Positions 8,495-52,699 of a stretch of DNA of 64,000 nucleotides are shown piece after piece. The notes below the pieces were generated by a model. The model was not told the origin of the DNA. It did no database searches and was given only the letters and a program-made list of their open reading frames with translations. Origin of the DNA: Fragilaria crotonensis (Eukaryota; Bacillariophyta; Fragilariophyceae; Fragilariales; Fragilariaceae); contig JAKSYS010000192.1 in NCBI GenBank assembly GCA_022925895.1, positions 27,539-91,538 on the forward strand, given 5' to 3'. The translations under genes were made by a program, and so were the position numbers. The number at the start of each line of letters is the position of its first letter. Within the stretch, counting starts at the first letter, position 1.

Positions 8495-8630
8495 GAAGTG
8501 GAAATCCACTTCAGTGAAGTGGAATTCCACTTCGGGTAAGTGGAATTTCACTTCGGGGAAGTGGAATTCCACTTAGGGGGAGTGGAATTCCACTTAGGGG
8601 AAGTGGAATTCCACTTACCCGAAGTGAAAT
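8495..8630. repeat. Tandem palindromic repeat cluster 1
   Basis: About six to seven copies of a unit near 19 bp. Each copy is built on the 16-bp palindrome aagtggaattccactt (EcoRI-site centre) with a 2-4 base spacer such as cggg, aggg or cagt. Single-base variants break the palindrome in some copies. Every unit is self-complementary, so the tract can form hairpins of many registers. Confidence 0.85.
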
Positions 8631-8695
8631 GCAATGTTCCCAAAATGAATTCATACTGAATTGTGTAGGCGTCACGTGTGTCCATCGCATTGTGA

Positions 8696-8839
8696 GGAAG
8701 TGGAATTCCACTTCGGGTAAGTGAAAATCCACTTCGGTGAAGTGGAATTCCACTTCGGGTAAGTGGAATTTCACTTTGGAGAAGTGGAATTTCACTTAGG
8801 GGAAGTGGAATTTCACTTAGGTGAAGTGGAATTTCACTG
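8696..8839. repeat. Tandem palindromic repeat cluster 2
   Basis: Seven to eight further copies of the same aagtggaattccactt-type unit, separated from cluster 1 by about 65 bases of unique sequence. Copies toward the right have drifted to aagtggaatttcactt. Spacer variants match those in cluster 1. Confidence 0.85.
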
Positions 8840-35170: not shown

Positions 35171-36197
35171 CTATTGATCGAAGACATTGAGACCCTTTTG
35201 AAAGCGATACGTATCACGAAGTGAGTCATTGGCGGCAATTCTCCACTCTTCATTAAAGTTGGAACCTGCCGGAGGCAACGGCTTTCCTGCCAGGAGAGAC
35301 TCGATATCATCGGCAATATCATTAGGCATGTACTTGCGAGGATACCGACGCAGAGGCAAGCCCGTTCGCCCGTCCAAAAGGAACTTTTCGAAATTTCCCT
35401 GAATTCGTCCCAAACCTGATGGAGCTCGACATGTGCCTTCCAACCATCTCCAAAAAGGGTGTGCACCGGTTCCTAGCAAAATCATCTTGTCTGTAAGCGT
35501 TGTAGCGGGGTTAATGCCATACCCGTATTCAGAAGCAAGTTTGAGGCGAATCAAGGCCGACGTGTCCGGTTCATAATACCCCTGGTCGGTAGGCGTCAAG
35601 ACAACTACGAACTCTCCGTCCCGACCGTATCTGTGTTTGAGGGACGTTAGGGACATCATCCATCGGCATTAAACGGTTAAGGGTGCATCGCAGAACTGCA
35701 AACGGAACTTACTTTGACGCCAGCGAGATGAATTCTGGTATGTTCTTCCTCGCGATAGGATCATCCTGCTTAATATTCACAACCAATATTGCCTTGACCT
35801 TGCTCTTGGCGTCATCTTGCTTCACTAAATCCCCAAAACTGACGGTCTCACCAGCTACTGGCAATGTAAAGTCGTACGCAGTGCGACCATCAGGTATCGG
35901 TTTCGGTGCAGGAGCCGCACTGCTCTCGATCTCTTCTTCCAGCGCCTGTGAAATCTTGGCAGCGCGGCTGGCGATGGTACTAAAGTCTAATTGTTCGTCA
36001 CCGTCGTCGTCGGCCGCGTTGGCCGCCTTAGAAACTCCAACCGCCCCTATCAATGCTGCTGAGCTGAGGATGGATCGTCGAGAAACAGCGTGTAAAGCGA
36101 CCGAGCTGGAGCGTTGTTGCAGCCGTGATGACGAGGACCAAGCAGCCCCTGAATGCAGAAGAGTAGCAAGAAGCAAGTATGTTGCAGATGTCTTCAT
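35171..36197 (-). CDS. Glutathione-peroxidase-like thylakoid-lumen protein lacking the catalytic Cys (one intron)
   Basis: Exon 1 is 36197-35713 and exon 2 is 35630-35171; the spliced protein has 314 residues. It starts with a signal-peptide-like 'MKTSATYLLLATLLHSGAAW' and a Ser-rich transit region. 'SRRSILSSAALIGAVGV' ending in 'AANA' follows, as in a twin-arginine thylakoid signal. This three-part leader suggests the plastid thylakoid lumen. The body follows the GPx fold: 'AYDFTLPVAGETVSFGDL', 'KAILVVNI', 'HPFWRWLEG', 'GRIQGNFEKFLLDG' and 'NDIADDIESLLAG'. Where GPx enzymes have Cys/Sec after the 'VVN' strand, this one reads 'NIKQDDPIARKN', so peroxidase activity of the normal kind is doubtful. 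The MULE left terminus lies about 250 bases upstream of its start. Confidence 0.75.
35631..35712 (-). other. Intron of the GPx-like gene (82 bases, GT-AG)
   Basis: On the reverse strand: GCGTCAAA|gtaagt ... caaacacag|ATACGG. Splicing yields 'FISLASK-YGRDGEF', continuous with the GPx fold. Confidence 0.9.
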
Positions 36198-36445
36198 CTT
36201 GTTCAACACCAAGGAGTTAGTTGTGAATAGCGGTATGATCTGCGGAAAAAGGATAATCAACGAGTCTGCCTTCGCATTGTTGAGAGTGATGAGTGAAAAA
36301 ACGGATTCCACGTTGAAGATATTCCAATCTACACACGGTTGTCGGCGGTCTGAGGTCTTCACCACGTATACATACGCGAGGATTTGTAACGAATCTCGTC
36401 CTATCATACAGGTACTTTTACTGATACAGCTCTGAAATTGGTAGA

Positions 36446-36477
36446 TCCGATTAGGTTTCACCAATTTGACGTCAGCA
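36446..36477 (+). repeat. MULE left terminal inverted repeat
   Basis: Thirty-two bases identical to the reverse complement of 48531-48562. It contains the palindrome tgacgtca. It sits in the 5' flank of the GPx-like gene. Confidence 0.8.
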
Positions 36478-36805
36478 CCCACGTCACAGTAATAAACTAC
36501 AGTGAGTCCTCCTGTAGAAGATTTTTGAAGACATCGGAAATTTGAATGGCTGACAAAACACGGAATCTTTGTTGTTGACTTCTGTCGGCGCTTTTCCTAA
36601 CGCGCATGTCAACCCTTTGTCATGCCAGAAAGATAACTGCTACATATCTCCTTCTATCAGTGATTCATGTGTTTCCCTTGTTTTGAATCACTCGAACTTA
36701 TTACATTACTTTGTATTCGATTACAACCTAGTAGGGTTGCAAATCTCCTTGAATACAAGTACACTTTTCTTCTTAATCAACACCAACAGAACTTTCTTTC
36801 TGTAC

Positions 36806-37552
36806 GAATTTCGATCTTCAAATAGTCTCGAATGGACAAGTAACAGTGTGTCAGTATGATGACGACTATTTTGTGTACAATTTCGATCTTCAAATAGTCA
36901 CGAATGAACAAGTAACAGTATGCCAGTAAGAAGACGACTATTTGGTGTACGAATTCGATCTTCAAATAGTCACGAATGAACAAGTAACAGTATGTCAGTA
37001 CGATGCGACTATTTGGTGTACAAATTTCGATCTTCAAATAGTCGCGAATGGACAAGTAACAGTATGCCAGTAAGAAGACGACTATTTGGTGTACGAATTT
37101 CGATCTTCAAATAGTCACGAATGAACAAGTAACAGTATGTCAGTACGATGCGACTATTTGGTGTACAAATTTCGATCTTCAAATAGTCGCGAATGGACAA
37201 GTAACAGTATGACAGTAAGAAGACGACTATTTGGTGTACGAATTTCGATCTTCAAATAGTCAGGAATGAACAAGTAACAGTATGTCAGTACGATGCGACT
37301 ATTTGGTGTACAAATTTCGATCTTCAAATAGTCGCGAATGGACAAGTAACAGTATGACAGTAAGAAGACGACTATTTGGTGTACGAATTTCGATCTTCAA
37401 ATAGTCACGAATGAACAAGTAACAGTATGACAGTACGATGACGACTATATGGTGTACGAATTTCGATCTTCAAATAGTCACGAATGAACAAGTAACACTA
37501 TGACAGTAAGAAGACGACTATTTGGTGTACAAATTTTGACCTTCAAATAGGC
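36806..37552 (+). repeat. Tandem array 1 (72-73 bp unit, 145-bp higher-order repeat)
   Basis: Eleven copies of a core with cttcaaatag at 36816, 36888, 36960, 37032, 37105, 37177, 37250, 37322, 37395, 37468 and 37541. The period is 72 or 73 bases. From 36960 on the copies alternate between two types (acgaatgaacaag and gcgaatggacaag), giving a 145-base higher-order unit. Each unit has an internal inverted pair, gactatttg and caaatagtc, around aatttcgat. Confidence 0.92.
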
Positions 37553-37584
37553 TACTACATACAGCATGTACGACTACGATGAAC

Positions 37585-38310
37585 TCATTTCTTGCATTCT
37601 TCATCCGAAGTACTGTAATTGCCGTCCCGAATTAATGTTTGCTTCCAAACACTTTGTCTATTGAAACACACGTTGCACCACCAAGTGTTTTCGAGCTTTC
37701 TCTTTTCATTGCAACACATGGAACATACATGCTTCTTACATTTCCGACACGAGTGCTTTGAAGGCTTATTGCATTCAATACAAGCATCATCCTCGTCACC
37801 AGCTTTCTTACTTCCTGTCATCCGCTCTTTTGAAGGCTTATTGCATTCAATACAAGCATCATCCTCGTCACCAGCTTTCAAACTTCCTGTCATCCGCTGT
37901 TTTGAAGGTTGCTTGCATTCAATGCCAGCATCATTGTCGTCACCAGCTTTCCTCTTTCCCGTCACCGTACTTTGTTTCCCAAAGTACACTGATTTCCTTA
38001 GACGATCCCGAACCTCTTTCCTTACTTTTTCTGTGTTGACACCTTTCCAAACGTTTTCCTCTTTATTGACAAAGATGTAACCTTTTTTCCGCATCTCCTC
38101 TAGCACTTCACCTGCAATATTGTCCTTAGCGCTTTCTGTTCGACTTTCAAACGTGGCATCTGCAGCTCTTCGGATTATCCGACGGAAAGCCATGTTTGGT
38201 GGATGTCCCTTTGGTTCATCGCGTTTACGTACTACAATACCATTTGGCGGTAGAGATGTACTTTCAAATGGACCTGGTCCGGCCTCCAATTCATTTATTG
38301 ACGGCGTCAT
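37585..38310 (-). CDS. MULE cargo: DUF6824-like region plus Cys-rich putative zinc domain
   Basis: From the Met at 38310 the frame gives 241 residues. Residues about 40-110 ('MAFRRIIRRAADATFESR', 'KDNIAGEVLEEMRKKGYIF', 'WKGVNTEKVRKEVRDRLRK') follow the DUF6824 pattern, a domain expanded in diatoms and of unknown function. The segment 'DEDDACIECNKPSK' then occurs twice, after a related degenerate copy. The last part has 'SCRKCKKHVCSMCCNEKRK' and 'WWCNVCF', Cys pairs typical of a zinc-binding module. This frame may be the 3' end of the same gene as the next four upstream reverse-strand segments. A separate gene with its own start at 38310 is the alternative. Confidence 0.5.
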   Translation of the reverse strand: MTPSINELEAGPGPFESTSLPPNGIVVRKRDEPKGHPPNMAFRRIIRRAADATFESRTESAKDNIAGEVLEEMRKKGYIFVNKEENVWKGVNTEKVRKEVRDRLRKSVYFGKQSTVTGKRKAGDDNDAGIECKQPSKQRMTGSLKAGDEDDACIECNKPSKERMTGSKKAGDEDDACIECNKPSKHSCRKCKKHVCSMCCNEKRKLENTWWCNVCFNRQSVWKQTLIRDGNYSTSDEECKK

Positions 38311-38404
38311 GCCCTCCCCTTCTTTTTCGTTACACACGTTTCATTCGCGATCTAATATCGCCATTCCACCATCGTATGTTTTTTCCTTCCACCCTTTTTT
38401 TCTG

Positions 38405-39240
38405 TCATCTCGAGGAAACGAAATCCCTCCTTTTTAGAGTTGTGTAAATGGTACGCTGCACCTCATATTTTTCTGCCTGATTAGCTGCTGACAAGTGCAT
38501 TTTCTTGAAGTCCAATGTGCGATCAAGGTACGGAATGCATTTGCGGTGCCCCTTCCCACACAGTACATCCTTTTTCCCAGGTTTGGCGATTATCGAAACA
38601 CTTTCATTTTCCTTTTCAAAATTATCGCGTATAAACTTCAACGCATTTTCGACAAATGGCAATGGAGACTTCTCGTGTGAAAGAGCAAGGATTTGCCAAC
38701 ACAGATTCTTCTTCTCATCTTCTGATGCAGCATATTCGAAGTCCTTCTTTAAACTTGAAATAAATGTAGCAATATGCTGTATAGACAATGGCACAAATTC
38801 ACTTCCCTGCGAGAGCGCCGTGGTCGTATGTGCTCCATCAGGCATCTTTTCGGTGTCTTGAATCTTTTCTGGTGATGTATGATCTTGTTCCTGTACTGCC
38901 TCTGCTTCACCCTTTCGTGCTGGCGACTTCGTCAACGATGGATCATCCTGCTTTCGCTGGCCTAGACCACCCGACTGCTCTTCACCACTATCCGTCTTCC
39001 CTTTTTTCTTTGTTTGTCGAGGCTTTCGCGAAGTCTTTCGCAACCGCTTCGCTACATCATCATTATTCATCTGGCACAAATCTGTTTCCCTGCCAAGCAA
39101 CACTCTTTCTTTCGACAAAGGTTGCCACTGCAATATCTTGGCTAAATCAGGAAACGCATGTCGTGGTCCGGCATCGTTAGTTTCCCCCACGAAAGCGACC
39201 GTTCTATCCCCTTGCTGGGACGAAGATATTTTTTGTACTC
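38405..39240 (-). CDS. MULE cargo: DUF6824-like segment with basic low-complexity linker
   Basis: The frame is open on the reverse strand from about 39240 ('SSSQQGDRTVAF') to the stop at 38405. It contains a Lys/Arg-rich linker ('RKTSRKPRQTKKKGK'), a polar linker and a helical region. The end is 'KKDVLCGKGHRKCIPYLDR', then 'YEVQRTIYTTLKRRDF'. The 'DVLCG+G' start followed by a helix and 'IYTTLK' resembles the N-terminal half of DUF6824. It is joined to the upstream segment by a one-base frame change at an A6 run (T6 on the + strand, about 39227-39232). Two incomplete DUF6824-like units therefore lie close together. Confidence 0.45.
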
Positions 39241-39720
39241 ATGAGCTTCTTCTCGAACCGACCCAAAGTTGCTGCTTGCTATTCTGTCAATCAGTTGAAA
39301 CAAGCTCACGTACACGTCATGCAAATAGTGAGCAAATTTTCGTGTTGATGTGGGAATGTTCCTGCCCATGCCCTTGACATTGTCATTCCTGTCAAAAGTG
39401 ATGTCACCTTTCACATTCCCACTCGTGTCGAATGTGACGTCGTGCACCATGACACAAAAATCGCGGATGAAAATCAATGATTTTAAACCACTTTGCGCCA
39501 CATCCTTTGACGTTTCCTGAATTAGAATGTAATCTGGCGGTAAACTCAACGGTCGGAAGCGCCCCTTCTCGATGTCACATGTCTCATTGTTCTTGTCAGT
39601 GACGACACAACCAAAATTAACGCTTTGCCGTGTGAAACCGACGTAAAACGAATGCATGTTGAAAAACCATGGTGCAACAACCTTGTCTTTCCATGGTGAG
39701 CTTTCCCCTTTTCTTTTCTT
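39142..39720 (-). CDS. MULE cargo: middle segment, function unrecognised
   Basis: The frame reads from about 'SSPWKDKVVAPWFFNMHSFY' through 'RQSVNFGCVVTDKN', 'LSLPPDYILIQETSKDVAQ', 'LIFIRDFCVMVHDVTFD' and 'LHDVYVSLFQLIDRI' to the stop at 39142. It is well-formed coding sequence, but I recognise no family. It follows the possible protease segment after a frame change near the C4/T4 runs at about 39704-39712 and leads into the DUF6824-like segment after another at the T6 run. It is probably an inner part of one long protein. Confidence 0.4.
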   Translation of the reverse strand, partial: KKRKGESSPWKDKVVAPWFFNMHSFYVGFTRQSVNFGCVVTDKNNETCDIEKGRFRPLSLPPDYILIQETSKDVAQSGLKSLIFIRDFCVMVHDVTFDTSGNVKGDITFDRNDNVKGMGRNIPTSTRKFAHYLHDVYVSLFQLIDRIASSNFGSVREEAHEYKKYLRPSKGIERSLSWGKLTMPDHDMRFLI

Positions 39721-40140
39721 CTTTTGGTTTTCGTGCTTTTGCATTTGGATCATTCTCAGGACTGAGTATGAAGTGCACCAATTTGAGGAAGAACCGGCAA
39801 ATTGGCGGTGGGTCAGAACGGCGACGTTTTCCAGTTGGATCAAACAAAAAATATCCACATTTTGTATCGTTATCATTGTTCCCAGTTTTTCCACAATTCA
39901 CCGCTACGAAAACAGTCCATGAACAATCTTCATCCTCTTGTGCAGGAATGACAATAAACGGCTTCGTGAGGAGATCCTTGTGTTGTATAATGAACTCCAC
40001 CACCAGAATTGTTGCCTCCATAAACCTCTTTTGGTCAATCTCGTAATGAAAGATGTGGTTTACAAACTGTCTTCTCTCTGTATCGGTTTTTAGGTCGCGA
40101 ACCGAAGATGCAACGTTCCGTCCTTCAATGAAGGATGTAA
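39617..40140 (-). CDS. MULE cargo: possible cysteine-protease-like (Ulp1/C48-type) segment
   Basis: The frame is open from about 40140 ('AFFTSFIEGRNVASSVRDLK') to 39617. The core is 'KPFIVIPAQEDEDCSWTVF' followed by 'VAVN' and, after a loop, 'KCGYFLFDPTGK'. A strand ending in a Trp, then a second strand ending in Asp, is the arrangement around the catalytic His-Asp of Ulp1-type peptidases. Here the residue before the Trp is Ser instead of His, so activity is doubtful and the family call is weak. Plant MULEs of the Kaonashi type are known to carry Ulp1-like genes, which makes the reading plausible. The tail (after 'ENDPNAKARKPKEEKK') passes into another frame. Confidence 0.35.
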
Positions 40141-41156
40141 AAAAGGCTCTCCATTGTTGACACCTCAGTCATGATCTTACAAGGAATGATGGTCAGGGTC
40201 GACCAAATTTCAGCTTTACAATACCGCTGCAGCCATCCCAGAGCAATGTCCACAAAGTCTGGAGAAAGAGCGTCACCTTTGCGCGTAAGGCAACGATCTA
40301 TCCAAGTCAGACGAGCACTTGGACCTTGGAATAGGTATTTTTCCATTATCGAGTTCTTCGGATGGAAGGCCTTGTCATCCCAAAATTCACCCGAGTAACA
40401 ATCATAAGTTGGTGTACAAAATGTTGCCTCTTCGTATGTTAAGTTTCCCGGGAAGAAGGCATACACGGATGGACAATCAATGGTGTTGTCATTGGGATTG
40501 TTGAACAACCTTTTCAATACTATCTGGTTTCTGGATTCTTGTGGGAAGGCAAAATATTCACGTGTAAGGCAAATCGTCAACCACTTCAAATCGTTGCTGA
40601 ATCCGAGATAGTCCTTGAGTGGACTATCATCAACCTCATTGACAAAACAGTCTCTCAAAACTTTAGGAAATGCTTCAGTCCCTTCAGCCATTTCGGCAAA
40701 GTTGCGTCTTGAATAATAACCCCATGCCACTTTGTTCGCGGTCGGATTTGCTTTCAAATAAACATTTACTTCATCAACACCCACCCTACACCTTACAACT
40801 TGATGCATAATCGAAAGCAAAAAGTTGCCATTCCGTTGGCCTGATAGTCAACCTTGTTGCCAAAAAAGAACCAAAACAGCGTTCTCTCGTTGTACAAACG
40901 TTATAGCGCATATAGCAGTGGGTTTCTCCTTTTCCCATATACTAAGTGTCTCGCCCTTACCAAGGCAAGATGACAGTGACTTCCGATCTGAATGGTCGTC
41001 GAATATAACATGATACAATTCATAAACAGTATCACTCGCATTGTATTCATCTTCTCTTCCAACAAAGTGAAGAATACGATATTCCTGTAGGAACGTTGGT
41101 AATTGATCACGTGGAATGCGGTGGTGCCATTTCATCATCTCAATCATCGTCTTCAT
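40125..41156 (-). CDS. MULE cargo: GNAT-like acetyltransferase region with in-frame stop
   Basis: Two pieces share one frame, 41156-40848 and 40847-40125, split by a TGA at 40848-40850. Across it, 'PTAICAITFVQRENAVLVLF' and 'WQQG', then 'LSGQRNGNFLLSIMHQ', 'VDEVNVYLKANPTANKVAWG' and 'YYSRRNFAEM' resemble GNAT acetyltransferases (strand 4, acetyl-CoA loop and helix, then the 'A-x-x-[FY]-Y-x-x-x-[GN]-F' end). The second piece continues past the GNAT part into 'SARLTWIDRCLTRKGDALSP', probably the start of the next domain. The stop makes this allele likely non-functional unless it is read through or spliced out; no GT-AG pair near it is obvious. Confidence 0.45.
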
Positions 41157-41329
41157 TACTGGGGTTCACATCCGTCAAATGGATCATCGTCATGCGTACT
41201 GGTTGCCTTCGGCGCTCTTTGTCTTCGGGGCATACTGAGGAGATGAGTTGTTTAAGACTTGACGACCTTCAACATATACAAATCAGGTGCAGATGCTCAC
41301 AGTGTCGATTGCACTAATTGTGTACAGAT

Positions 41330-42032
41330 TCTGATCTTCAAATAGTCTTCTTAGACGAAGTAACCCGTAATTTCGATCTTCAAATAGTCACGAATGGACA
41401 AGTAACAGTATGACGGTACGAAGACGACTATTTGGTGTACGAATTTCGATCTTCAAATAGTCGCGAATGGACAAGTAACAGTATGACGGTACGAAGACGA
41501 CTATTTGGTGTCGAATTTCGATCTTCAAATAGTCACGAATGGACAAGTAACAGTATGTCAGTACGATGACGACTATTTGGTGTACAATTTCGATCTTCAA
41601 ATAGTCACGAATGGACAAGTAACAGTATGTCAGTACGATGACGACTATTTGGTGTACGAATTTTGATCTTCAAATAGTCACGAATGGACAAGTAACAGTA
41701 TGTCAGTACGATGACGACTATTTGGTGTACGAATTTCGATCTTCAAATAGTCACGAATGGACAAGTAACAGTATGTCAGTACGATGACGACTATTTGGTG
41801 TACGAATTTTGATCTTCAAATAGTCACGAATGGACAAGTAACAGTATGTCAGTACGATGACGACTATTTGGTGTACGAATTTTGATCTTCAAATAGTCGC
41901 GAATGGACAAGTAACAGTATGACGGTACGATGACGACTATTTGGTGTACGAATTTTGATCTTCAAATAGTCACGAATGGACAAGTAACAGTATGACGGTA
42001 CGATGACGACTATTTGGTGTACGAATTTTGTT
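41330..42032 (+). repeat. Tandem array 2 (72-73 bp unit)
   Basis: Ten copies of the same core as array 1 and in the same orientation (cttcaaatag at 41338, 41379, 41451, 41523, 41595, 41668, 41741, 41814, 41887 and 41960). The first two are only 41 bases apart, so one unit is truncated. Copies here are more uniform than in array 1. Confidence 0.92.
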
Positions 42033-42190
42033 CTTTGACGAGTGTTCTGAGTGATGTCGCCCTTGAGCACTGGCGTACTTCTGACACATGCGGCGTGACA
42101 GAAAGTATAAACTCTGATCACATTTTTCCTCCTTCGATTCCTTGCCCAACGCTGTTGCGAATGGTTATCAAACGGCAGAAGCAACTTGGA

Positions 42191-42425
42191 AACCATCATG
42201 AGGACGTCAAAACAGGTCACTGTTATCTGTGACTCGGGGCACAGTAACAGCAGTTCCAACCTTGACGTCACAAAAGCATGATGAGAGTACGGTTGTGGAA
42301 TGCAAATGTAGCAACGAAAACCATCATGAGGACGTCAAAACAGGTCACTGTTATCTGTGACTCGGGGCACAGTAACAGCAGTTCCAACCTTGACGTCACA
42401 AAAAGCATGATGAGGAGTACGGTTG
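42191..42425 (+). repeat. Direct duplication of about 105 bases at the 5' end of the oxygenase-like gene
   Basis: The sequence from about 42191 to 42297 recurs at about 42318-42425 (shared start accatcatgaggacgtc, shared end agtacggttgt) with one or two single-base indels. The second copy encodes the N-terminus of the oxygenase-like protein. Confidence 0.85.
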
Positions 42426-43528
42426 TACAGAATGATACCACAAGTGAGAACATTGGCAAGACTGGAAAACGAGGTTTTCAACATGTATATAAATCAAGGA
42501 AAAAGTCAAGCATCACGACGCAGGAAGCATACAAGAAGGCAATAGAAAATGGCAAGCCAAAGAGTGTTTATGCAAAGAAGCGCAATTATTTGAAGAAGAA
42601 AAGGCTAGATAGTTTGATGCAAGTTTCGTCGTCCCATGAGCATTCACTGGGCAAAACACTGTTGCAGAACAGTTGTAAACCTTTATTCTATAGTGGAGCC
42701 GATATGGAAAACTCAACGAGACTTCGCAAATGCATAGGTGATGCGCACATGCTGTTTGCAATCAATGATCTTAAAGTCATTGACACTATGTCTGGTGCCC
42801 GTTTGATTTTACCGAGTGGGGATAACGTATTCACTTTGATCCCACGTCCGTATGTTGTTGAAAAACTTACAAGGGTTAACCAAACCATCGAGGCACTTCA
42901 TGCACTTGAGGATGCAGAATCCAAAGCAGAAGTGCGTGGAATTAAACGAGTACCTGTTGCGGAAGATAATGGCAAATACACCACTGTTGGGTTAAAGCCA
43001 AACCGTGGTTCAACTGGTATTATCGAGTCTTGGCCGAAAACATTAAGTGACTGGAGCAAGACACAAATCCGTGACTTAATGAAGAGGTGTCATGAAGTTG
43101 CAAAAGGATTCATTCCAGGGAATGATCTTCGAGGACTCCGTAGTGCCCAATGGTTTGCCGATTGGCCAAGTATGGTAGGTATGCCATCTGAACCAATTTG
43201 GGGTAGTCTTGCCTGTGGCAAAAACTATTGTTTGAATTCGCATACCGATGAGGATTTTTTCTATTCCTTGACAACCATTATTTCGCAACATGGATTGCAA
43301 CCGGGTCGGTTTGATAAATACCGATTGGATGCCGACGTAACGAACTACTTTGCATTTGCAGAACAAGGGGTTGCCGTGGCACTGAGGCCGGGAGATATGT
43401 TACTTTTCAATCCATTGTATCAGCACTGTTTGACATCCCGCACATTGCAATATCAAGAGAAAGATGTGTTTTGTGTGTCGTTATACCTGAAGACAGCAGT
43501 TGTTGGAGGAAACAATAATACCAAATAG
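42278..43528 (+). CDS. MULE cargo: 2OG-Fe(II)-oxygenase-like protein
   Basis: The 416-residue frame has a basic, Ser-rich N-terminus with 'KKRNYLKKKRL'. A globular C-terminal half carries the oxygenase-like signature 'LNSHTDEDFFYSLTTI' (an H-x-D pair). 'NYFAFAEQGVAVALRPGDML' and 'LFNPLYQHCLTSRT' (the distal His) follow, and then 'DVFCVSLYLKTAV'. H-x-D...H after a 'PGD' turn is the iron-binding layout of 2-oxoglutarate dioxygenases. The substrate is unknown. TET/JBP-type nucleic-acid oxygenases carried by transposons are one hypothesis, since fungal elements do this. Met17 (42326) is a likelier start than 42278 because the upstream codons come from a duplication. The TAG stop lies inside the first unit of array 3. 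Unlike the other cargo, this frame is intact. Confidence 0.55.
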   Translation: MMRVRLWNANVATKTIMRTSKQVTVICDSGHSNSSSNLDVTKSMMRSTVVQNDTTSENIGKTGKRGFQHVYKSRKKSSITTQEAYKKAIENGKPKSVYAKKRNYLKKKRLDSLMQVSSSHEHSLGKTLLQNSCKPLFYSGADMENSTRLRKCIGDAHMLFAINDLKVIDTMSGARLILPSGDNVFTLIPRPYVVEKLTRVNQTIEALHALEDAESKAEVRGIKRVPVAEDNGKYTTVGLKPNRGSTGIIESWPKTLSDWSKTQIRDLMKRCHEVAKGFIPGNDLRGLRSAQWFADWPSMVGMPSEPIWGSLACGKNYCLNSHTDEDFFYSLTTIISQHGLQPGRFDKYRLDADVTNYFAFAEQGVAVALRPGDMLLFNPLYQHCLTSRTLQYQEKDVFCVSLYLKTAVVGGNNNTK

Positions 43529-44637
43529 TCGCCGTCGTACTGTACTGGTGATACTCGTACTGTGACGACTATTTGAAGATCGAATTTCGATCACCAAATA
43601 GTCGCCATTGTACTGTACTGGTGGTACTCGTACTGTGATGACTATTTGAAGATCGAATTTCGATCACCAAATAGTCACCGTCGTACTGTACTGGTGATAC
43701 TCGTACTGTGACGACTATTTGAAGATCGAATTTCGATCACCAAATAGTCACCGTCGTACTGTACTGGTGGTACTCGTATTGTGATGACTATTTGAAGATC
43801 GAATTTCGATCACCAAATAGTCACCGTCGTACTGTACTGGTGGTACTCGTACTGTGATGACTATTTGAAGATCGAATTTCGATCACCAAATAGTCACCTT
43901 CGTACTGTACTGGTGATACTCGTACTGTGACGACTATTTGAAGATCGAATTTCGATCACCAAATAGTCACCGTCGTACTGTACTGGTAGTACTCGTACTG
44001 TGATGACTATTTGAAGATCGAATTTCGATCACCAAATAGTCGCCATTGTACTGTACTGGTGATACTCGTACTGTGACGACTATTTGAAGATCGAATTACG
44101 ATCACCAAATAGTCGCCATTGTACTGTACTGGTGATACTCGTACTGTGACGACTATTTGAAGATCGAATTTCGATCACCAAATAGTCGCCATTGTACTGT
44201 ACTGGTGATACTCGTACTGTGACGACTATTTGGAGATCGAATTTCGATCACCAAATAGTCACCGTCATACTGTACTGGTGGTACTCGTACTGTGATGACT
44301 ATTTGAAGATCAATTTGATCACCAAATAGTCGCCATTGTACTGTACTGGTGATACTCGTACTGTGACGACTATTTGAAGATCAATTTCGATCACCAAATA
44401 GTCGCCATTGTACTGTACTGGTGATACTCGTACTGTGACGACTATTTGAAGATCGAATTTCGATCACCAAATAGTCGCCATTGTACTGTACTTGATACTC
44501 GTACTGTGATGACTATTTGAAGATCAATTTCGATCACCAAATAGTCACCTTACTGTACTGGTGATACTCGTACTGTGATGACTATTTGAAGATCGAATTT
44601 CGATCACCAAATAGTCGCCATCCTAGTCATGATGTCG
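43520..44637 (-). repeat. Tandem array 3 (about 73-bp unit), inverted relative to arrays 1 and 2
   Basis: About fifteen units near 73 bases (some 2-5 bases shorter). Each contains gactatttgaagatc, a centre aatttcgat and ccaaatagtc, followed by a variable gtactgtactggtgatactc part. The core matches the reverse complement of the array 1/2 core. Each unit is itself an imperfect palindrome, so both strands can fold. Confidence 0.9.
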
Positions 44638-44863
44638 AACAAGAGCGAAAGTCTAAGTCGATCACCAAATAGTCGCCATTGTACTGTACTGGTGATACTG
44701 TACTGTGATGACTATTTGAAGATCGAATTTCGATCACCAAATAGTCACCTTCGTACTGTACTGGTGATACTGTACTGTGATGACTATTTGAAGATCGAAT
44801 TTCGATCACCAAATAGTCCCCATCCTAGTCATGATGTCGAACAAGAACGAAAGTCTAAGTCAA
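44618..44863 (-). repeat. Satellite fragment and 42-base duplication at the right end of array 3
   Basis: Two more array-3-type units (about 44660-44818) are framed by two copies of a non-array sequence, 44620-44660 and 44821-44863 (shared core cctagtcatgatgtcgaac). This looks like a segmental duplication of the array's border. Confidence 0.75.
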
Positions 44864-44892
44864 CATTGTTATTAATTCTAAATGTACTACTT

Positions 44893-47800
44893 TTAAAAAC
44901 TCCATGATGAGACATATGTTTTGCACACCTTGCCAACAGGACACCCCGAAACTAGGGACCCTTTGGGTGGTGGTTTCTCAGAAGCCATGTTGGCTTTCTC
45001 GGTGAAGATAATCTTGTCGAGTGCCTCCTCAACAAGAAGACCTCTCTCTTGTGGGCTTTTTGAGGCATCAACAAGACTAACTAGTTCCTTTGCTCTTGGC
45101 ATAATGCTGTCGTACGCATTGTAACGTTCCAATTCGGATACGTCTTCATGGTGAAGAGCACGTGATCCAAAATCAATGCAGTCAGTTTCTAAACTCGTAG
45201 ATTCCATGAGGATGTCGTCATTGTCGTCAAGATGAGTATTCGTGTGCTCAGTTTCATGACCAGCGTCGATGAGTGGTTCCTCAGGCAAGTGGATCTCTTG
45301 CGACATTGATACGGGAACAGTATTTTTGGCATTCTTCAGGGCAATCTCAACCTCATCCCTGGTGTAGTTTACGACACTGTCCAGTTTTGAGGGTTTTTGG
45401 AAAAGGGAGTCAATGGTACTTTCAGTGGCATTTCTGAATTGCTCATTTGAATTCTTCCCACACTTGTAGACACGATGGAATGGAGAGAAAGTATGATCGT
45501 CATTCTTTGGAATAAAGTTTGGGCCTTTGCAATCATTCTCACGTATTGATTCCAGCTTCTGCTTTATCTCTTTCTCAGTTAGTGAGCAATCACTCTCCTT
45601 CTTCATTGAGAAATAAATATATGATTTCCACCAACGTACTGAAATGTCGTGGTGACTGATGTTTGGATTGCTTGCATAATACTTCTTCACATGCATCATG
45701 TGTGGGCAGATGACACCATTGCATTCGTAGTAGTTGCAGTCACACATCAGACAAACCCTGTTGTCAAAGTCTTGTGAGGTGACAGTGTACACTCTGTGGA
45801 AGCATGGAATCAAAGAATGGACATCACGGTCAACTGACCGAACAACAAGCCATTTGAAAGGGCTTGCTCTCCAAGAAGCATAGCTCTCGCATTGATCAAG
45901 AGCGAATTTCAACATGAACTCTGCAGGAAGGGTGACATCATTGACGGTGGGAGAGTTACTCCAGGTTGCTCTTCCAAACAGGGCACTAGCCATATATCGT
46001 TGGTATAGGTCAAATTTGTTGGAATCGGTGTCAACTTGAATTTTGACAGATTTGTCAACACCGTGCTGTGGAAGCACACAGGAAGGACCAGCTTTGATAG
46101 CATTATTTGTACCTTCGTGCCCAGAATTTGTGTTGGTCTCGAAGTGTCTCACCCCCTTCCTCAGATAAAAGCAATAACTCTGCTCTTGTGGAATTATGTA
46201 ATTGCGGATAAAGTGCAATATCTTTTCTCCACCGTCCTCCCCAAAAATTGCCTTAATAGTGTCTGATTTCAAGTACATATGTAAAAGGGCGTAACTTCTT
46301 TGATGTTGACGATTCTTTTAGAAAAATGGTATCACAGATAACACACAGAATAAACATGTAGGTGTACTCACATTTCGTACTCGTCTTGGAAAAGTATCCT
46401 CGGCGCATCCAGCTGTAGATCCAGGTTTTTATTACTCTTACCTGCCTCTTGGCGGCATCATCCTTGCCTCTCCGATAACCCAAGCCTTTACAATTTCGTC
46501 GCCAGCCTTGATCAACAAGGTGCCACCCACATCGAGTACGTACTGCATTGACAAAATGTGTGGAGATGGCATAGTCAACTTGTGTCATTTCTTGGGAATC
46601 ACCGTCAGTCATGATAAGTTTCACAGCATGTAGTGATTGTGCACCAAGAAGAACAGGAATGGCTTCTTGGAATAGCCAACGGAAGAACCAAGATCGTTCA
46701 TTCGGGGCAATGCACCTAACAACCACAGTCACCTTTCCATTTGAATCTTTCACAGAGAGTGTCAGCAATGGTCTGCTTTCATTGTTCGTCTCATGAGTGC
46801 CGTCAACGCATACAACTTCAGGAAAAGCGTGGAACAGGCGCCTGCCTTCTGGTAAAACCCAACAACAGGCAATGAGTATATCCTGGTCTTCCCTTGCACC
46901 AACCGCAAGTCTGCTTTCCAAAGCATATTTCTTAAAAGTGGATGTCTCTGCCACCTCCAGAGGTACTGGCTTCTCGTGAATAGGTGAAGTGTCATCAGTG
47001 TCATCATCAGTTGGGATAACAGAAAGGCTGGTTAGTTCACCTGATAAATCATGAGGAATGGCTTCAGTACGTGCAGCCTTTACACTGTTACCACGTAGTT
47101 CTTTTGATTTGCCATGATGATACAGACAGACATACGAGGCACCACTTTTTTGTAAGTAACTCAACATATTCTCACAGGGTGAAGACTCCGATGCTGTTGT
47201 GGTAGCATGAACATTTGGGGAAGCCATGAAGTCTTTTGCCATTTTTGTAAATCCTTGCACATATGCCATCTGACCACGAGTAAAAATCTGACCCGTACGG
47301 GTTTTAGTAAACAGAGCCGCTTGGGCAGGCTGGATGTTGGCAACACTCATTGCAGCAACAGTTTCCAGGGTTGTAATGTCAAGAAAGCGTTTACGATTCC
47401 TTATTTCATTGGAAAGAAGAGGAGGATGGCCAGTGTGCTGATTGTTTCCAATTCCGCAAACAAGGAAAAAGCTATTATGGTCAATTCAGGTGTGAATTTG
47501 ACACGACAAGTGCAGGAGTTACCACGTAGAGTTGAATTGCGACGTTTCAATCCGATGCCAGAACTCTTGCACCCACGGGCATTCTTCTTATCACCAGTGT
47601 AGGTGGTAACACGATAAGAATCGGTTCCAGTACTTTGGTTCGGTGTGCAGGACATTCCTCCTTCTTCTGATGAATACTGGCGGAAATTACTGCATTTCAA
47701 TACGCGTTGGTCAGTCAGTAGTACATCTGTGACATTGGTTGGGGAACGCAAACCATAACCATTGGAAACAAGGGCACAATTCCCAACAGATTTGGCAGCT

Positions 47801-48060
47801 TGGAGTAAGTCAGTGATAAGACTATGGCCTCCTGAATCCTTTCAAATCCACCATTGATGGGATAAAGAGATGGACTGAACCGAATAATATGCTTGGAACC
47901 CTTGTACATGGAGGTAGTGTACTGAAAGAGGTCGTACTCCGTTTCCAATGATGCATTGAAATCATCGGTTGCATGACAAAATGACCTTTGAAAGGCAAAG
48001 AAGCAGTCCATGACATAGCCTTGAGAGCAGATAGAGTCTGGTCCACAGCATGGGATCCTG
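44893..48060 (-). CDS. MULE transposase with SWIM zinc finger (intron; N-terminal frame breaks)
   Basis: The core is encoded by 47350-46372, an intron, then 46262-44893. It has the Mutator-like DDE domain: D in 'VVCVDGTHETN', D in 'LIMTDGDSQEM', 'TRCGWHLVDQGW' and the acidic residue in 'SGHEGTNNAIK'. A SWIM finger follows (C-x-C ... C-x-H in 'LMCDCNYYECNGVICPHMMH'). This domain order is standard for MULE transposases, which bind the terminal repeats and cut DNA. Sequence further 5' (47751-47401, and about 48060-47800 in another frame) continues the protein with Cys-containing segments but needs one-base changes near 47463 (a T5 run on the coding strand) and near 47820. The N-terminus is uncertain and the copy may be inactive. 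Confidence 0.78.
46263..46371 (-). other. Intron of the MULE transposase (109 bases, GT-AG)
   Basis: On the reverse strand: ACGAAAT|gtgagtac ... cttgaaatcag|ACACTATT. Splicing joins 'YFSKTSTK-Y-TIKAIFGEDGG' in one frame and removes the stop at the end of the first exon's frame. The length is not a multiple of three, as the frame change requires. Confidence 0.75.
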
Positions 48061-48149
48061 CATCAATGGTACTTCTTGTTGTGGATGATCCTAAAGAGAC
48101 CGAAACATGGGGTTGGCAACAAATTAATCGGTAGGTGGTTGCTATAGTA

Positions 48150-48265
48150 ATGCAAGCAAAATGACAACAGATAGAGAGCAAACAAGAGCGAAAACAGAAC
48201 AAGGGCAACAAGAGAAACAAAAGCAGCAAGGAGAGCAAGAACAACAAGAGAAACAATAATGACAG
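48150..48265 (+). repeat. Low-complexity A/G-rich tract
   Basis: Imperfect repeats of agagcaa, aacaagag and aacaaaag type units. Frames across it are hydrophobic or poly-Glu/Gln-like by composition only, so none is called as a gene. Confidence 0.65.
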
Positions 48266-48530
48266 GGAGACAAAGTGCCATACCATCGTGGTCGTAAAAT
48301 ATCAAAATGATGAGTTTTGTGCGAGTAAACTCAAATCCACTACTGGTACCATGTTTTATACACATCTAGACACGATCATTTTTATTTCTATTCAAACAAA
48401 TGTGGAGCAGATTTATGTTCCTTATCTAGAACGTAGTTTTGCACAAGAGTTGGTTTGAAAAGAGGGCGGTGATAAAGTCAAAGAGAAAGATTCCGTGCAA
48501 GTTAAATTCCACAACTAAAGTGCTAAAAAA

Positions 48531-48562
48531 TGCTGACGTCAAATTGGTGAAACCTAATCGGA
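48531..48562 (-). repeat. MULE right terminal inverted repeat
   Basis: Thirty-two bases, exact reverse complement of 36446-36477. It lies about 470 bases upstream of the transposase's 5' region. Confidence 0.8.
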
Positions 48563-49139
48563 CCCGCACTGTATGATCAGTGGGGTATCCACAGATCCAA
48601 TCCGCCTAACGCCTAACACCGACTCGTAGTGTCCGCTACTACAAGCATAAACATAGTACCATTCTGACCAGAAATCTACAATCTACAGTACACATATGCA
48701 TACATAGTTACAAGTTACTACTGAGTACTGTACAAAGTACAACTACAGTACGACGAGTAGTCGGAGCCTGGAAGTTAGGAGTATCATACTACTGCTCCAA
48801 TTCCAATGAAGTGACAATGAGGTCGATTTGTACCAAGAGCTTCCTGACTCCTGACACAGCTATGTGATACTAACGTGCGCCGTTTGCATGCCGACCGATC
48901 TCGTCCGCCATATAGACCTTCATCTTGAGGCCAGGCGCAATGGGACAAACCTACCCTACCGTAGTGATACAAATACAAGGATAACAGTAATGCAGTTATA
49001 GGTATAAGCATCCAGTGATGTCTCACTCTCGGACGCTCAGCAATCAAAAATTGATAATGCGTAGCCGCACTGATTAGAAAGAAGCAGGACTACCAGCCCA
49101 CACCACGTATCAAAACTACAACTTGAATGAGAAATCTCG
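48563..49139. other. Intergenic region
   Basis: About 580 bases between the element and the 3' end of the GlnRS gene. GTAC/TACTG motifs at 48650-48760; nothing else recognised. Confidence 0.5.
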
Positions 49140-51680
49140 TTATTGAATACCAGCATTTTGCAAGGAGGCCGCCTTAATGGGTCCGCCACTGGTCATCATG
49201 CGAAATGTCTGACCTTCCCACGAGTAAACTGCTTCACCCTCACTGTTTGTCTGGAAACCAGCCTTGACACGATCCCATACTTTCAGAGCTCCTTTAGACT
49301 TCATCATTTCATCTGGCTCGCTAGGTTCTTTGCCGTCAAACGAAATGAGCTCTCCGTTTGGTACTGAGTCTGGGACAACAAGAAGTTCAACCTTTTCGTT
49401 CTCCTCCTTTCCGTCCGAGGCGGCCAAAAGCATGGCATGACTTTCAATCCCTCTCATTTTCGCTGGCTTTAAGTTTGTAACTGCGACAACCTTTTTGCCG
49501 ATCAAATCGTTGATAGAGATCTTGCCGGCGAGACCTGCGACGACAGTGCGTGGCTCCATGGCCCCACCAACGTCTCCACAGTCAACCTTGAGTAGCAGGA
49601 GGGAGTCGGCCTCGGGGTGTGGTCCAACATCGACAATGGTGGCGGCTCGTAGCGCAGGCCGTCTCAGGTCTTCAACAACTTCGGCACCAACTGGTGATGG
49701 CTGCCTGGTACCGTTGCTGTTTCCACCACCTCTGCTACGTTGCTGCTGTTCCACGTTTGCAGGTGCCGTTTCTTCGCCTGCCCACGTATCGCGCAGGGTA
49801 ACAACGCGATTGAAAATGAGATTCGCATCAGTTGAGGCTTTGTCCAAAGCAAAGTAACCAGATCGTTCAAATTGATAGGAAAGACTGGAAGCGTAGATGG
49901 TACCTTCCGCGTTCCTTATCTTAGCAAGGATCGATAGAGCATCCTTTCCAACGGAAGGTTCGACTACAACGTTATTGATCACTTCCAGGGAATTCGGATT
50001 GAGATCTTGCAGGTAATCCCCACTTTCCTTTCCAGGCTCTTCTGACAAGAAAAGACGATCGTATTGATTCACTTGACAATTGATTGCGGTTTTTCCATCC
50101 ACCCAATGAATGATGCCTTTGGCTTTCTTCATCCCTTCCGGCGTCACACCGGCACGGGTCTCGGGAAAGTAGGTGCACTTCAGATCTACAGGCTCCTGAG
50201 TGAGCGGATCGCGAATCACTTCATCGCATCGAATTACGTATGCGAACTTGAGACGAACCGTATCACCCTCGATCAATCGTTTCCAGCCCCTTGGGACTTG
50301 CCCATCGTTCAATTGTCCTTCAGGACCCTCCAGATCGAAGAAATCTGAGCGCTCAATGTAAAGATTCTTGCCGAATGGAATCATTCGATCACCCAACTTC
50401 TCCAACTTTGGATGGCGAGCAACAGAGAATTCTTCCACCTCGGAATCATCCCAATTACTCAATGTCACTTTCAAAGGTTTGAGGATGGCAAAGGCGCGGG
50501 GACAAATCTTGTCCATTTCCTCACGAATGCAATCTTCTAACACGACATAGTCAATGTTAGAATCCGCCTTACTAATACCAATACGTTCACAAAAAAGTCT
50601 CAGTGCAGATGGAGGGACGCCACGTCGTCGAAAACCCGAAAGGGTCGGCATTCGAGGATCATCCCATCCATTAACAAAATCTCCCTCCACAAGCTGAATG
50701 AGTTTCCGCTTGGAGAGGACAGTGTTTTTGATGTTGAGGCGACTGAATTCGATCTGCTGAGGTTTCGAATGAAGCATCCCAGCAGCACGCAGCTTCTCAA
50801 CAGTCCAATCATAAAACGGTCGATGATCTTCAAACTCTAAGGTGCAAAGTGAGTGGGTGATTCCCTCCACCGCATCCGCGATAGGGTGACTGAAATCGTA
50901 CATGGGGTAGATGCACCATTTATCACCAGTCTCTTGGTGTGATTCGAATTTGATGCGATAGAGAGTTGGATCTCTCATGTTGATATTTGGCGACGACATG
51001 TCGATCTTGGCTCTGGCAATGTGTTCACCTTCTTTAAATTTTCCGTCTCGCATCCCTCGAAAGAGTTCCAAGTTCTCTTCCACAGAACGTGTTCTAAAGG
51101 GACTGTCTCTTCCTGGTTCCGTGAGAGTACCACGGTATTCTTTCATTTCGTCAGCCGACAAAGAGTCCACATAGGCGTCGCCTTGTTGAATCAAAGCCTC
51201 CGCACAGTCATAGATGAAATCGAAGTAATCTGAAGTCTTTCGGACAGATCCTGCCCATGGTGCGTCTTCGTCATCAGCATATAGACCAGACTGAATCCAA
51301 CGGACATCTTCGAGGATTGACTCCACGTACTCCTTTTCTTCTTTGCTTGGGTTGGTGTCGTCCATTCTCATGTTGCATTCACCTCCAAACATGCGAGCCA
51401 CTTGAAAATTGAAAGAGACAGCCTTGGCATGTCCCAGGTGGAGATAACCATTCGGTTCCGGAGGAAACCTGGTTGTGACCTTGGCTGTGATTGACGGTTC
51501 CATCTTGAGCTGCGATGCGCCTTCAGAAGTTCCATCATTTGGATCAATCTCCAACAGACCAAGTGGATCAAGACCAGTTTGATCGGCGATTAGTTTCGTG
51601 ATGAAATTTGGGGCGTACGCAAAGCCCTCCACTTGCCATTGAAGAAGAGGGATCAATGCTAATAGGTACGCCCTCGACAT
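49140..51680 (-). CDS. Glutaminyl-tRNA synthetase, plastid-type leader, C-terminal EMAPII/Trbp-like domain
   Basis: The protein is 846 residues from the Met at 51680. The leader 'MSRAYLLALIPLLQWQVEGF' then 'AYAPNF' is a signal peptide followed by an ASAFAP-like 'GFAYAP' junction, as used for diatom plastid import. The body is a class I GlnRS: 'RFPPEPNGYLHLGHAKAVSF' (HIGH motif, about 75-90), 'MRMDDTNPSKE', 'PMYDFSHPIADAVEGITHSL', 'VLSKRKL' (KMSKS counterpart, about 321-327) and the beta-barrel anticodon domain. The last 170 residues (about 677-846), 'LRAATIVDVGPHPEADSLLL' to 'AVTNLKPAKMRGIESHAM', form an OB-fold tRNA-binding domain of the EMAPII/Trbp111 type. It charges tRNA-Gln with glutamine. 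The frame opens 14 codons earlier, but Met15 gives a proper signal peptide. Confidence 0.92.
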   Translation of the reverse strand: MSRAYLLALIPLLQWQVEGFAYAPNFITKLIADQTGLDPLGLLEIDPNDGTSEGASQLKMEPSITAKVTTRFPPEPNGYLHLGHAKAVSFNFQVARMFGGECNMRMDDTNPSKEEKEYVESILEDVRWIQSGLYADDEDAPWAGSVRKTSDYFDFIYDCAEALIQQGDAYVDSLSADEMKEYRGTLTEPGRDSPFRTRSVEENLELFRGMRDGKFKEGEHIARAKIDMSSPNINMRDPTLYRIKFESHQETGDKWCIYPMYDFSHPIADAVEGITHSLCTLEFEDHRPFYDWTVEKLRAAGMLHSKPQQIEFSRLNIKNTVLSKRKLIQLVEGDFVNGWDDPRMPTLSGFRRRGVPPSALRLFCERIGISKADSNIDYVVLEDCIREEMDKICPRAFAILKPLKVTLSNWDDSEVEEFSVARHPKLEKLGDRMIPFGKNLYIERSDFFDLEGPEGQLNDGQVPRGWKRLIEGDTVRLKFAYVIRCDEVIRDPLTQEPVDLKCTYFPETRAGVTPEGMKKAKGIIHWVDGKTAINCQVNQYDRLFLSEEPGKESGDYLQDLNPNSLEVINNVVVEPSVGKDALSILAKIRNAEGTIYASSLSYQFERSGYFALDKASTDANLIFNRVVTLRDTWAGEETAPANVEQQQRSRGGGNSNGTRQPSPVGAEVVEDLRRPALRAATIVDVGPHPEADSLLLLKVDCGDVGGAMEPRTVVAGLAGKISINDLIGKKVVAVTNLKPAKMRGIESHAMLLAASDGKEENEKVELLVVPDSVPNGELISFDGKEPSEPDEMMKSKGALKVWDRVKAGFQTNSEGEAVYSWEGQTFRMMTSGGPIKAASLQNAGIQ

Positions 51681-52699
51681 GATCGTCAATGCAGTTGGTG
51701 GGAATTGGCTTGTTCGTTTCAATGCTTAGGTCAGAAATGTACGTGCGTCAGTCAGGATCTGAGGTGATGGCTCGAAACTGTAAAATAGTAAATAGTACCG
51801 GTAGACTAGGCTACTGGTACTACGACTAGTAAGAGAGACCTACACGCAACCAATTCTGTTCGGATGATCTTTACGGTACAAGTAGTTCCATAAGGAAGAA
51901 CTTGTAGACCCCTGCTCCCCGAGGTCGAACTACAACCATACGAAAGTCGAAGTTGTGCCCTCTACCTCCCAAAATGCAAATTCTTCCGATGGATGATGAG
52001 CACAAGTGCCAAGTGCGTGACTGCAGTACCAGGTACGAAAGGACGCGACACTATGCATACGTACCGACGCACACGCAACAATACGGAAACGCGGTTCAAG
52101 TAAACTGGTACTCCATGTACAGACTCTGGAGGATGAGAGCTCCAAAACCTGTACTTCAAACTACTGTAGTACCTGACCTGCACAATACGGAGTGTACCGA
52201 CCAGTACTGCGATGATCAACATAACTCCAGACTCCAGACAGGCTCCGCGTACTTCGAGTGTGGAGTATTCATATATGTATACTTTCGATCTCATTGACGT
52301 ACTTAGACATGTCAGGAGCGCATCATGATCGTACACTTCAGGCAAACTCTCATTTTCCTGGTATACCGCCACGCTGCCTTTCGTACTTGGAGACTCGGAA
52401 CTCGGAGTATAAAAAAATCATACATTTCGTGATCTCCAAAGAAGATTGCGGTCGTTGACTTTCTCTTAAAAGATCACACATATACAAATAAGCAAATATA
52501 TAGATTTTCGAGATCGTCATCGCCAACATTTCGGAGAAAAGGCCGTGTCTTCAAATAGATGTATTCATGTATGCAATTAGAGTGCTCTTCAGCGAGCGCA
52601 CCGTGAGCGCGCAATCCGTCAGCATTGACTCGTTCGAAGCAAACGAATGAAAAGCGCCACATTTTCCTTTTCAATTGGCGACACCCACAACTCACAACT
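51681..52699. other. Intergenic region between divergent genes
   Basis: About 1 kb with both promoters. GTAC/TACTG motifs are dense at 51790-51830 and 52020-52210. No gene or RNA feature was recognised. Confidence 0.55.

Follow-up and report, generated by a model that had tools for sequence, protein, structure and literature searches.

A 64,000-nucleotide stretch of the Fragilaria crotonensis genome (contig JAKSYS010000192.1, positions 27,539 to 91,538; hereafter the window) holds a 12.1-kb Mutator-like transposable element, the subject of this study, which carries a transposase gene, a gene for a 2-oxoglutarate (2OG)-Fe(II) dioxygenase, a long gene with a DUF6824 domain and three tandem arrays (Table 1). 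A preliminary description, made from the letters of the window, had bounded this element by a perfect 32-bp inverted repeat, and the two terminal inverted repeats (TIRs) are indeed exact reverse complements of each other. The terminal unit found here is three bases longer at each end, as outer triplets are present on both sides.

Table 1. Coordinates of the element and its parts in the window
Feature	Position	Strand or direction	Remarks
Left terminus	36443..36477		outer triplet AGA (36443-36445) and 32-bp TIR (36446-36477)
Array A3, 73-bp unit, ~10 units	36801..37550	same direction as A2	
Long gene	37585..41156	-	DUF6824 and C-terminal FYVE-like zinc finger (weak match); frame broken here
Array A2, 73-bp unit, ~9 units	41369..42035	same direction as A3	
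TET/JBP-fold 2OG-Fe(II) dioxygenase gene, 416 aa	42278..43528	+	antisense to transposase
Array A1, 73-bp unit, ~18 units	43520..44861	inverted vs A2/A3	several overlapping repeat rows
Transposase exon 2	44893..46297	-	putative E of DDE and SWIM-like motif
Predicted intron, 74 bp, GT..AG	46298..46371	-	inferred from frames
Transposase exon 1	46372..48050	-	MULE domain (PF10551); start approximate; frame broken here
Right terminus	48531..48565		32-bp TIR (48531-48562) and outer triplet CCC (48563-48565); read inward, GGG followed by TCCGATTAGG

The TIR has no further copy in the window at up to eight substitutions. In the 62.1-Mb, 881-contig assembly that served as the genome, it occurs at up to three mismatches 91 times in forward and 89 times in reverse orientation, and the reversed pattern used as a control does not occur at all (0 + 0). 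Copies are named here by contig label (C93, C878, etc.). The listed ends number 140, and 98 of them form 49 inward-facing pairs, the kind of paired inverted copies that the preliminary description had proposed to count. It had also taken unpaired termini as evidence against the element; the remaining 42 listed ends are single, yet some of these may have partners with 2-3 mismatches, and 40 more TIR matches lie outside the listing. Twelve of the pairs span 11.9-13.0 kb and one spans 9.6 kb; the others comprise three of 5.1-6.1 kb, a single one of 3.9 kb, 20 of 2.2-3.0 kb, one (C164) of about 535-541 bp, and 11 miniature inverted-repeat elements (MITEs) of 157-165 bp. The 12 full-length copies have the same ends at separate loci, and these common boundaries rule out the nested insertion of two elements that had been offered as an alternative. 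Gene orientation is alike in 11 of them; in C93 the oxygenase segment is inverted and diverged. Of the 12 derivatives of 2.2-3.0 kb that were read whole, most retain 0.7 kb at the left, the right end, an array and, except in C6 and C150b, a piece near 3.3-3.7 kb.

GGG forms the outer triplet at one end in 47 of the 49 copies (the exceptions are C164 and the C437 MITE), and the opposite end of the GGG copies has AGA (27) or GGA (19), i.e. 46 of 47; the outer triplets therefore travel with the element. Two MITEs have unusual triplets, CTA in C505 and TAG in C437, so the outermost three bases are apparently exchangeable. The left TIR also holds TGACGTCA, which we take to be a palindromic site of bZIP/CRE type; the element could respond to such factors.

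None of the copies has the duplication that would be expected of a Mutator-like element (MULE). The preliminary description had seen no target-site duplication (TSD) at the window copy, which is correct, and the 8-11-bp duplications that it proposed to look for elsewhere are absent as well (0/49 copies). The flanks abutting the 49 copies share 0 bp (27 copies), 1 bp (14), 2 bp (4), 3 bp (3) or 4 bp (one, C851), and when the outer triplets are counted as flank, no bases are shared in any copy. A TSD lying at an offset was considered and rejected: over 20 bp of flank on each side, the longest word in common averages 3.73 (41 copies), versus 3.81 +/- 0.15 when the pairing is shuffled.

Instead of a duplication, the insertion sites show a loss. 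The joined flanks of 41 copies, and then of 39 (eight of them new), were compared with the genome; the figures given here refer to the scored candidates, 40 of 675 and 40 of 610, and leave uncounted the C484 matches (one flank only) and second, short, partial C451 rows. A candidate empty site was found for at least 13 insertion loci, and in 10 of the 13 the occupied site is 6-7 bp shorter at the junction. These ten include long copies (C150, C304, C451), medium ones (C416, C40, C437, C851, C437b) and MITEs (C268, C143). The extra bases in the empty site are ATAGGG for C416 (read at 4 of 13 listed places), CATAGT for the C268 MITE (3 of 22 listed places), CATGTC for C150, CATACT for the C143 MITE and TACATG for C304. 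At two loci the extra bases number seven: TCCTATC for C40, beside an A run whose length differs by one base, and AAGCGAC for C437, with a 1-bp length difference close by. C451 lies inside a related MITE, and the 6 bp missing there are present in 11/11 reference MITEs (AGGATG in 9, ACGATG in 2); its search rows are mostly 6 bp longer, with a few of 4, 5 or 7. For C851 the lengths are 100 bp occupied and 106 bp empty at 94% identity, and for C437b the difference is +6 in three of four rows and +9 in one. Because all the copies read of the dispersed C416 and C268 targets have the same hexamer, the hexamer is most simply ancestral.

Read outward, both flanks favor the same bases, as counted after one duplicated locus had been dropped: G at +1 (21/48 per side; p 4.6e-5 for the two sides combined) and T at +3 (20 and 21 of 48, p 0.0015). 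Positions +4 and +12 gave p 0.013 and 0.019 among the 12 tested, and the smallest p at 33 outer positions was 0.05. A target that is symmetric about the lost bases would be expected if a paired transposase acted on both strands. Five of the six exact 6-bp hexamers begin or end with CAT when either strand is read, a post hoc observation that serves as a lead only.

The copies have diverged little. Relative to the majority sequence, the 12 long copies have 0-6 substitutions over the ~3.7 kb of the transposase segment (22 in C878) and 0-9 over the ~3.8 kb of the long-gene segment (17 in C93); they also carry several to many small indels, many of them adjoining homopolymer runs. Divergence is greater in two parts: the inverted oxygenase segment of C93 (85% to the window copy) and the right-hand ends of C93 and C878 (94%). 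Frame breaks, mostly small indels, sit at different places in different copies. The published assembly of F. crotonensis SAG 28.96 (61.85 Mb, 879 contigs), as described in the portion of that report available to us, was built with Canu from Nanopore R9.4.1 reads and polished with Pilon (PMC9476933), and it is presumably the assembly analyzed here. Given this method, most of the frame breaks are probably sequence errors, and a loss of function was not concluded from breaks that differ from copy to copy and in many cases adjoin homopolymers. The family appears to have been active recently.

The MULE transposase named in the preliminary description was recovered by profile: PF10551 matches the open reading frame (ORF) at 46253-47350(-) with 51.3 bits against a cut-off of 27.6, and matches relatives too. 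Some relatives have a SWIM zinc finger, and a Pfam scan of exon 2 of the window copy matched nothing. Two D motifs (DGTHE and TDGD) are invariant across 17 transposase sequences. We take these to supply the catalytic D/D pair and HEGTNN in exon 2 to supply the E; a CxC..CPH motif in exon 2 is presumably SWIM-like, and the N-terminal part of exon 1 presumably resembles a zinc finger. The ratio of nonsynonymous to synonymous substitution rates (dN/dS) for exon 2 is 0.20 (C130). The driving enzyme is a Mutator-like transposase, and the element is a variant driven by a MULE-type transposase that is not a canonical MULE by the TSD criterion.

The 416-aa ORF had been called 2OG-oxygenase-like, and its fold agrees with a 2OG-type dioxygenase. 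Structure comparison (VIA-align of Foldseek pdb matches) shows a double-stranded beta-helix with TET/JBP structures as the nearest, and the iron ligands HxD...H are kept in 45/45, 45/45 and 43/43 of the residues present in a 47-row alignment. No Pfam profile matches the ORF above cut-off, PF12851 does not match the protein encoded in the window, and a PDB sequence search gave weak matches only (WelO5 and another oxidoreductase, E at least 1.2). Judged by its fold and not by profile, the enzyme is a divergent TET/JBP relative. Neither this fold nor the target loss is visible without computational tools. The dN/dS of the dioxygenase is 0.33 (C130) and 0.50 (C93). Within the TIR family it is flipped in C93, C130, C63 and C418, and in C305, whose arrays are outside those read, the flip is relative to the long gene. 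In the family the dioxygenase lies between inverted arrays, so that recombination of one array with another is the likely source of the flips. One protein of the dioxygenase family, P0084, is deposited under a Comamonadaceae metagenome-assembled genome and is probably diatom DNA in a bacterial bin.

The gene set recurs outside the TIR family. With one protein search per gene, and with 41 transposase places hand-picked from 98 rows after exclusion of fragments of deletion derivatives, a dioxygenase was found within 1.2 kb of ten transposase places (C388, C54, C860, two in C57, C270, C169, C786, C198 and C376), on the opposite strand in all ten, at 42-78% identity to the query (row used per locus). 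The long gene is also present at C388 and C860, in the order and orientation of the window (36% and 34% identity). Unbroken dioxygenase frames of 371-500 aa at 53-61% identity occur in C388, C54, C411, C592, C121 and C269. No dioxygenase was found within 6 kb of four transposase places of 58-73% identity (C361, C114, C342, C20) or of C35 (100% identity, at a contig end), nor beside ten distant transposases (28-37%). Since gene order and orientation recur at diverged sister loci, the transposase and the dioxygenase, at two loci together with the long gene, form a core of long standing in this lineage of elements. A tblastn search with two single proteins found no relatives of the element in viral contigs.

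The long gene had been described as GNAT/protease-like/DUF6824-like. DUF6824 was confirmed, just above cut-off, in 37585-38337(-) (30.9 vs 27), and it is the only Pfam domain above cut-off in the six ORFs and three full-length relatives that were scanned, other matches being weak; the GNAT and protease-like parts were neither confirmed nor disproved. No Ulp1/C48 protease domain was matched by Pfam, and the structure model of the N-terminal half, with a predicted local confidence (pLDDT) of 38, was too poor for use. In a PDB sequence search the zinc finger matched rabphilin-3A (E 0.0013). The protein is 1,147-1,269 aa long in four relatives. A search of NCBIfam with five proteins gave one match, at chance level.

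Three tandem arrays of opposite orientation had been noted, and the third (A1) is indeed inverted relative to the other two, with 71-77% complementarity among the 25 pairs listed. Unit numbers in the 12 full-length copies range from 6 to 19 for A1, 9 to 24 for A2 and 9 to 11 for A3. Each 73-bp unit has a palindromic block of ~37 bp, GACTATTTGGTG..CGAA..TTCGATCTTCAAATAGTC, that is alike in A1, A2 and A3, and a spacer beside it that differs between A1 and A2/A3. In the block, the top base has a mean frequency of 0.85-0.91, against 0.59-0.74 over the remainder of the unit; the comparison favors the block, as the units were anchored on its first 9 bases in a fixed register. The 9-bp arm of the block occurs twice in the remaining 51.9 kb of the window. 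Arrays are present in all 17 derivatives of 2.2-9.6 kb that were read whole (8 others were read at their ends only).

We consider it probable that these observations describe, as a whole, a recent MULE-type family that deletes 6-7 bp of target and carries a self-directed TET/JBP dioxygenase and docking arrays. Mechanistically, the two strand transfers would be staggered opposite to those of the usual DDE transposases, and the overhanging target bases would become 3' flaps that are trimmed off. The dioxygenase may oxidise methylated bases in the DNA of the element itself and thereby counter silencing. The palindromic block shared by the arrays could dock an element protein, either the transposase or the DUF6824/zinc-finger protein, and the docked protein would concentrate dioxygenase activity on the element. 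Demethylation, docking and flap trimming are proposals, and docking is modeled by analogy on VANDAL elements. That the element is a eukaryotic DDE transposon with inverted stagger, near-fixed removal of a 6-bp target and its own TET/JBP demethylase aimed by satellite docking arrays is a tentative suggestion, with rather less than an even chance of being right.

Several observations weigh against these readings. The loss is 7 rather than 6 bp at C40 and C437; the C150 and C304 flanks have further small length differences (the partners measure 130 and 128 bp, against 120-121 bp); C851 and C437b are represented by lengths only; the C335 partners are 7 bp shorter; the C297 match is only partial; and Nanopore assemblies are prone to small indels. 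The partner of C418 in C602 (10367-10486) has no extra bases and differs at only two junction bases, and is perhaps an excision footprint. Pfam Tet_JBP (PF12851) is matched by 3 of the 47 dioxygenase members, at best with 15.4 bits against a gathering threshold of 34.9, and the shorter dioxygenase comparisons have dN/dS of 0.60-0.87. For the long gene, C451 versus C335 gives dN/dS of 1.00. C164 and the 11 MITEs have no array (the 9-bp arm is absent), so that mobility does not require arrays in cis.

The missing bases might have another origin. An ordinary DDE insertion without target loss, followed by a rearrangement, or by a replacement of the ends along with 3 bp of flank on either side that rewrote GGG and TCT, would account for a replaced length equal to the two outer triplets (3 + 3) and for the triplets that vary in C437 (TAG) and C505 (CTA). 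We regard it as unlikely, given that the triplets travel with the element (GGG in 47/49, AGA/GGA in 46/47) and that the few substitutions in the 12 full-length copies leave little time for such a change at every site. Less probable still, and very improbable, is the reading that the 'empty sites' arose by excision with a gain of 6 bp, insertion itself leaving no trace: the C418/C602 partner does look like a footprint, but C416 and C268 each sit in a dispersed repeat with the same hexamer in every copy read (4 and 3), and hexamers differ between loci.

Other objections concern the roles of the genes and arrays. Gene capture is known for MULEs, according to the part of PMC6446971 seen by us, and the preliminary description had compared the element with Pack-MULEs and Kaonashi; on that comparison the dioxygenase and the long gene would be recently acquired passengers with no role for the element. 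The comparison fails on the recurrence of the gene set at diverged sister loci: the dioxygenase lies opposite the transposase at ten of them (42-78% identity) and its frames are unbroken (371-500 aa) at 53-61% identity, which makes a passenger origin decidedly improbable. That the arrays are expansion-prone filler without function is a serious possibility, though not the one we favor. Unit numbers vary widely among copies with near-identical genes, and MITEs do without arrays; against this, arrays are kept in 17/17 of the 2.2-9.6-kb derivatives examined, and the palindromic block is common to arrays with differing spacers.

In the window, the element has a neighboring gene on each side (35709-36482 and 49140-51722, both on the - strand); we take one of the two to be glutaminyl-tRNA-synthetase-like and the other to be plastid-targeted and glutathione-peroxidase-like. 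It is ~240 bp upstream of the likely start of the glutathione-peroxidase-like gene, for which Pfam gave nothing. Elsewhere in the window, a 33-bp tandem repeat has four perfect copies at 53418-53549, and a tandem array at 8495-8838 has a 21-bp unit containing the palindrome GAAGTGGAATTCCACTTC.

Among known systems, the Spy transposons of the PHIS superfamily are likewise DNA transposons without TSD, but have a transposase of another superfamily; Spy elements are not known to lose target bases on insertion. Pack-MULEs have gene fragments in place of a transposase, whereas the full-length copies described here carry a transposase and a conserved dioxygenase. To our knowledge, the VANDAL system has no dioxygenase part and no TIRs. 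VANDAL elements, which are MULEs of Arabidopsis, resemble the present one as MULE-type elements with varying noncoding tandem repeats, here with a shared block; in the passages of PMC10398659 consulted, these repeats expand and contract and are bound by an anti-silencing protein encoded by the element. MULEs are defined by TSDs of 8-11 bp in the part of PMC6446971 seen, in contrast to the 6-7 bp of target lost here. In the same source, the table entry for the 'MULE-Diatoms' group 37 reads 'No TSD and not indicated' and gives TIR lengths of 123-124 bp, so the absence of TSDs in diatom MULEs is already known; the term 'target site deletion' is absent from the text of that paper as available to us. 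By its table description, group 37 is similar in its MULE domain, terminal inverted repeats, diatom host and lack of TSD, and differs in its TIRs (32 bp here, 35 bp with triplets) and in a table entry of '1', taken as the ORF column, against three genes and three arrays here. Mutator-like families were reported in two marine diatoms (PMC2806351), with no TSD statement for them in the passages seen. The parts of PMC12730594 consulted give TSDs of 0, 2 or 3 bp for Harbinger-related transposons and describe TET+ DNA transposons of fungi, which are similar in joining a DNA transposon with a TET/JBP dioxygenase and in a proposed escape from silencing, but MULE/MuDR is not among the lineages named there, and 'diatom' and 'algae' are absent from its main text. 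Our literature search, with subscription papers, Repbase and preprints outside it, found neither target-site deletion by DNA transposons nor a JBP dioxygenase with a diatom transposon.

The TSD is a hallmark by which cut-and-paste transposons are recognized. A family that deletes a near-constant 6 bp, if true, would point to another geometry of strand transfer, and the usual rules of annotation would overlook it; target deletion may also explain the diatom MULEs tabulated as lacking TSDs. A TET/JBP-fold enzyme carried with a diatom MULE would extend the idea of a transposon-borne demethylase beyond fungi and the 11 lineages given in the part of PMC12730594 seen.

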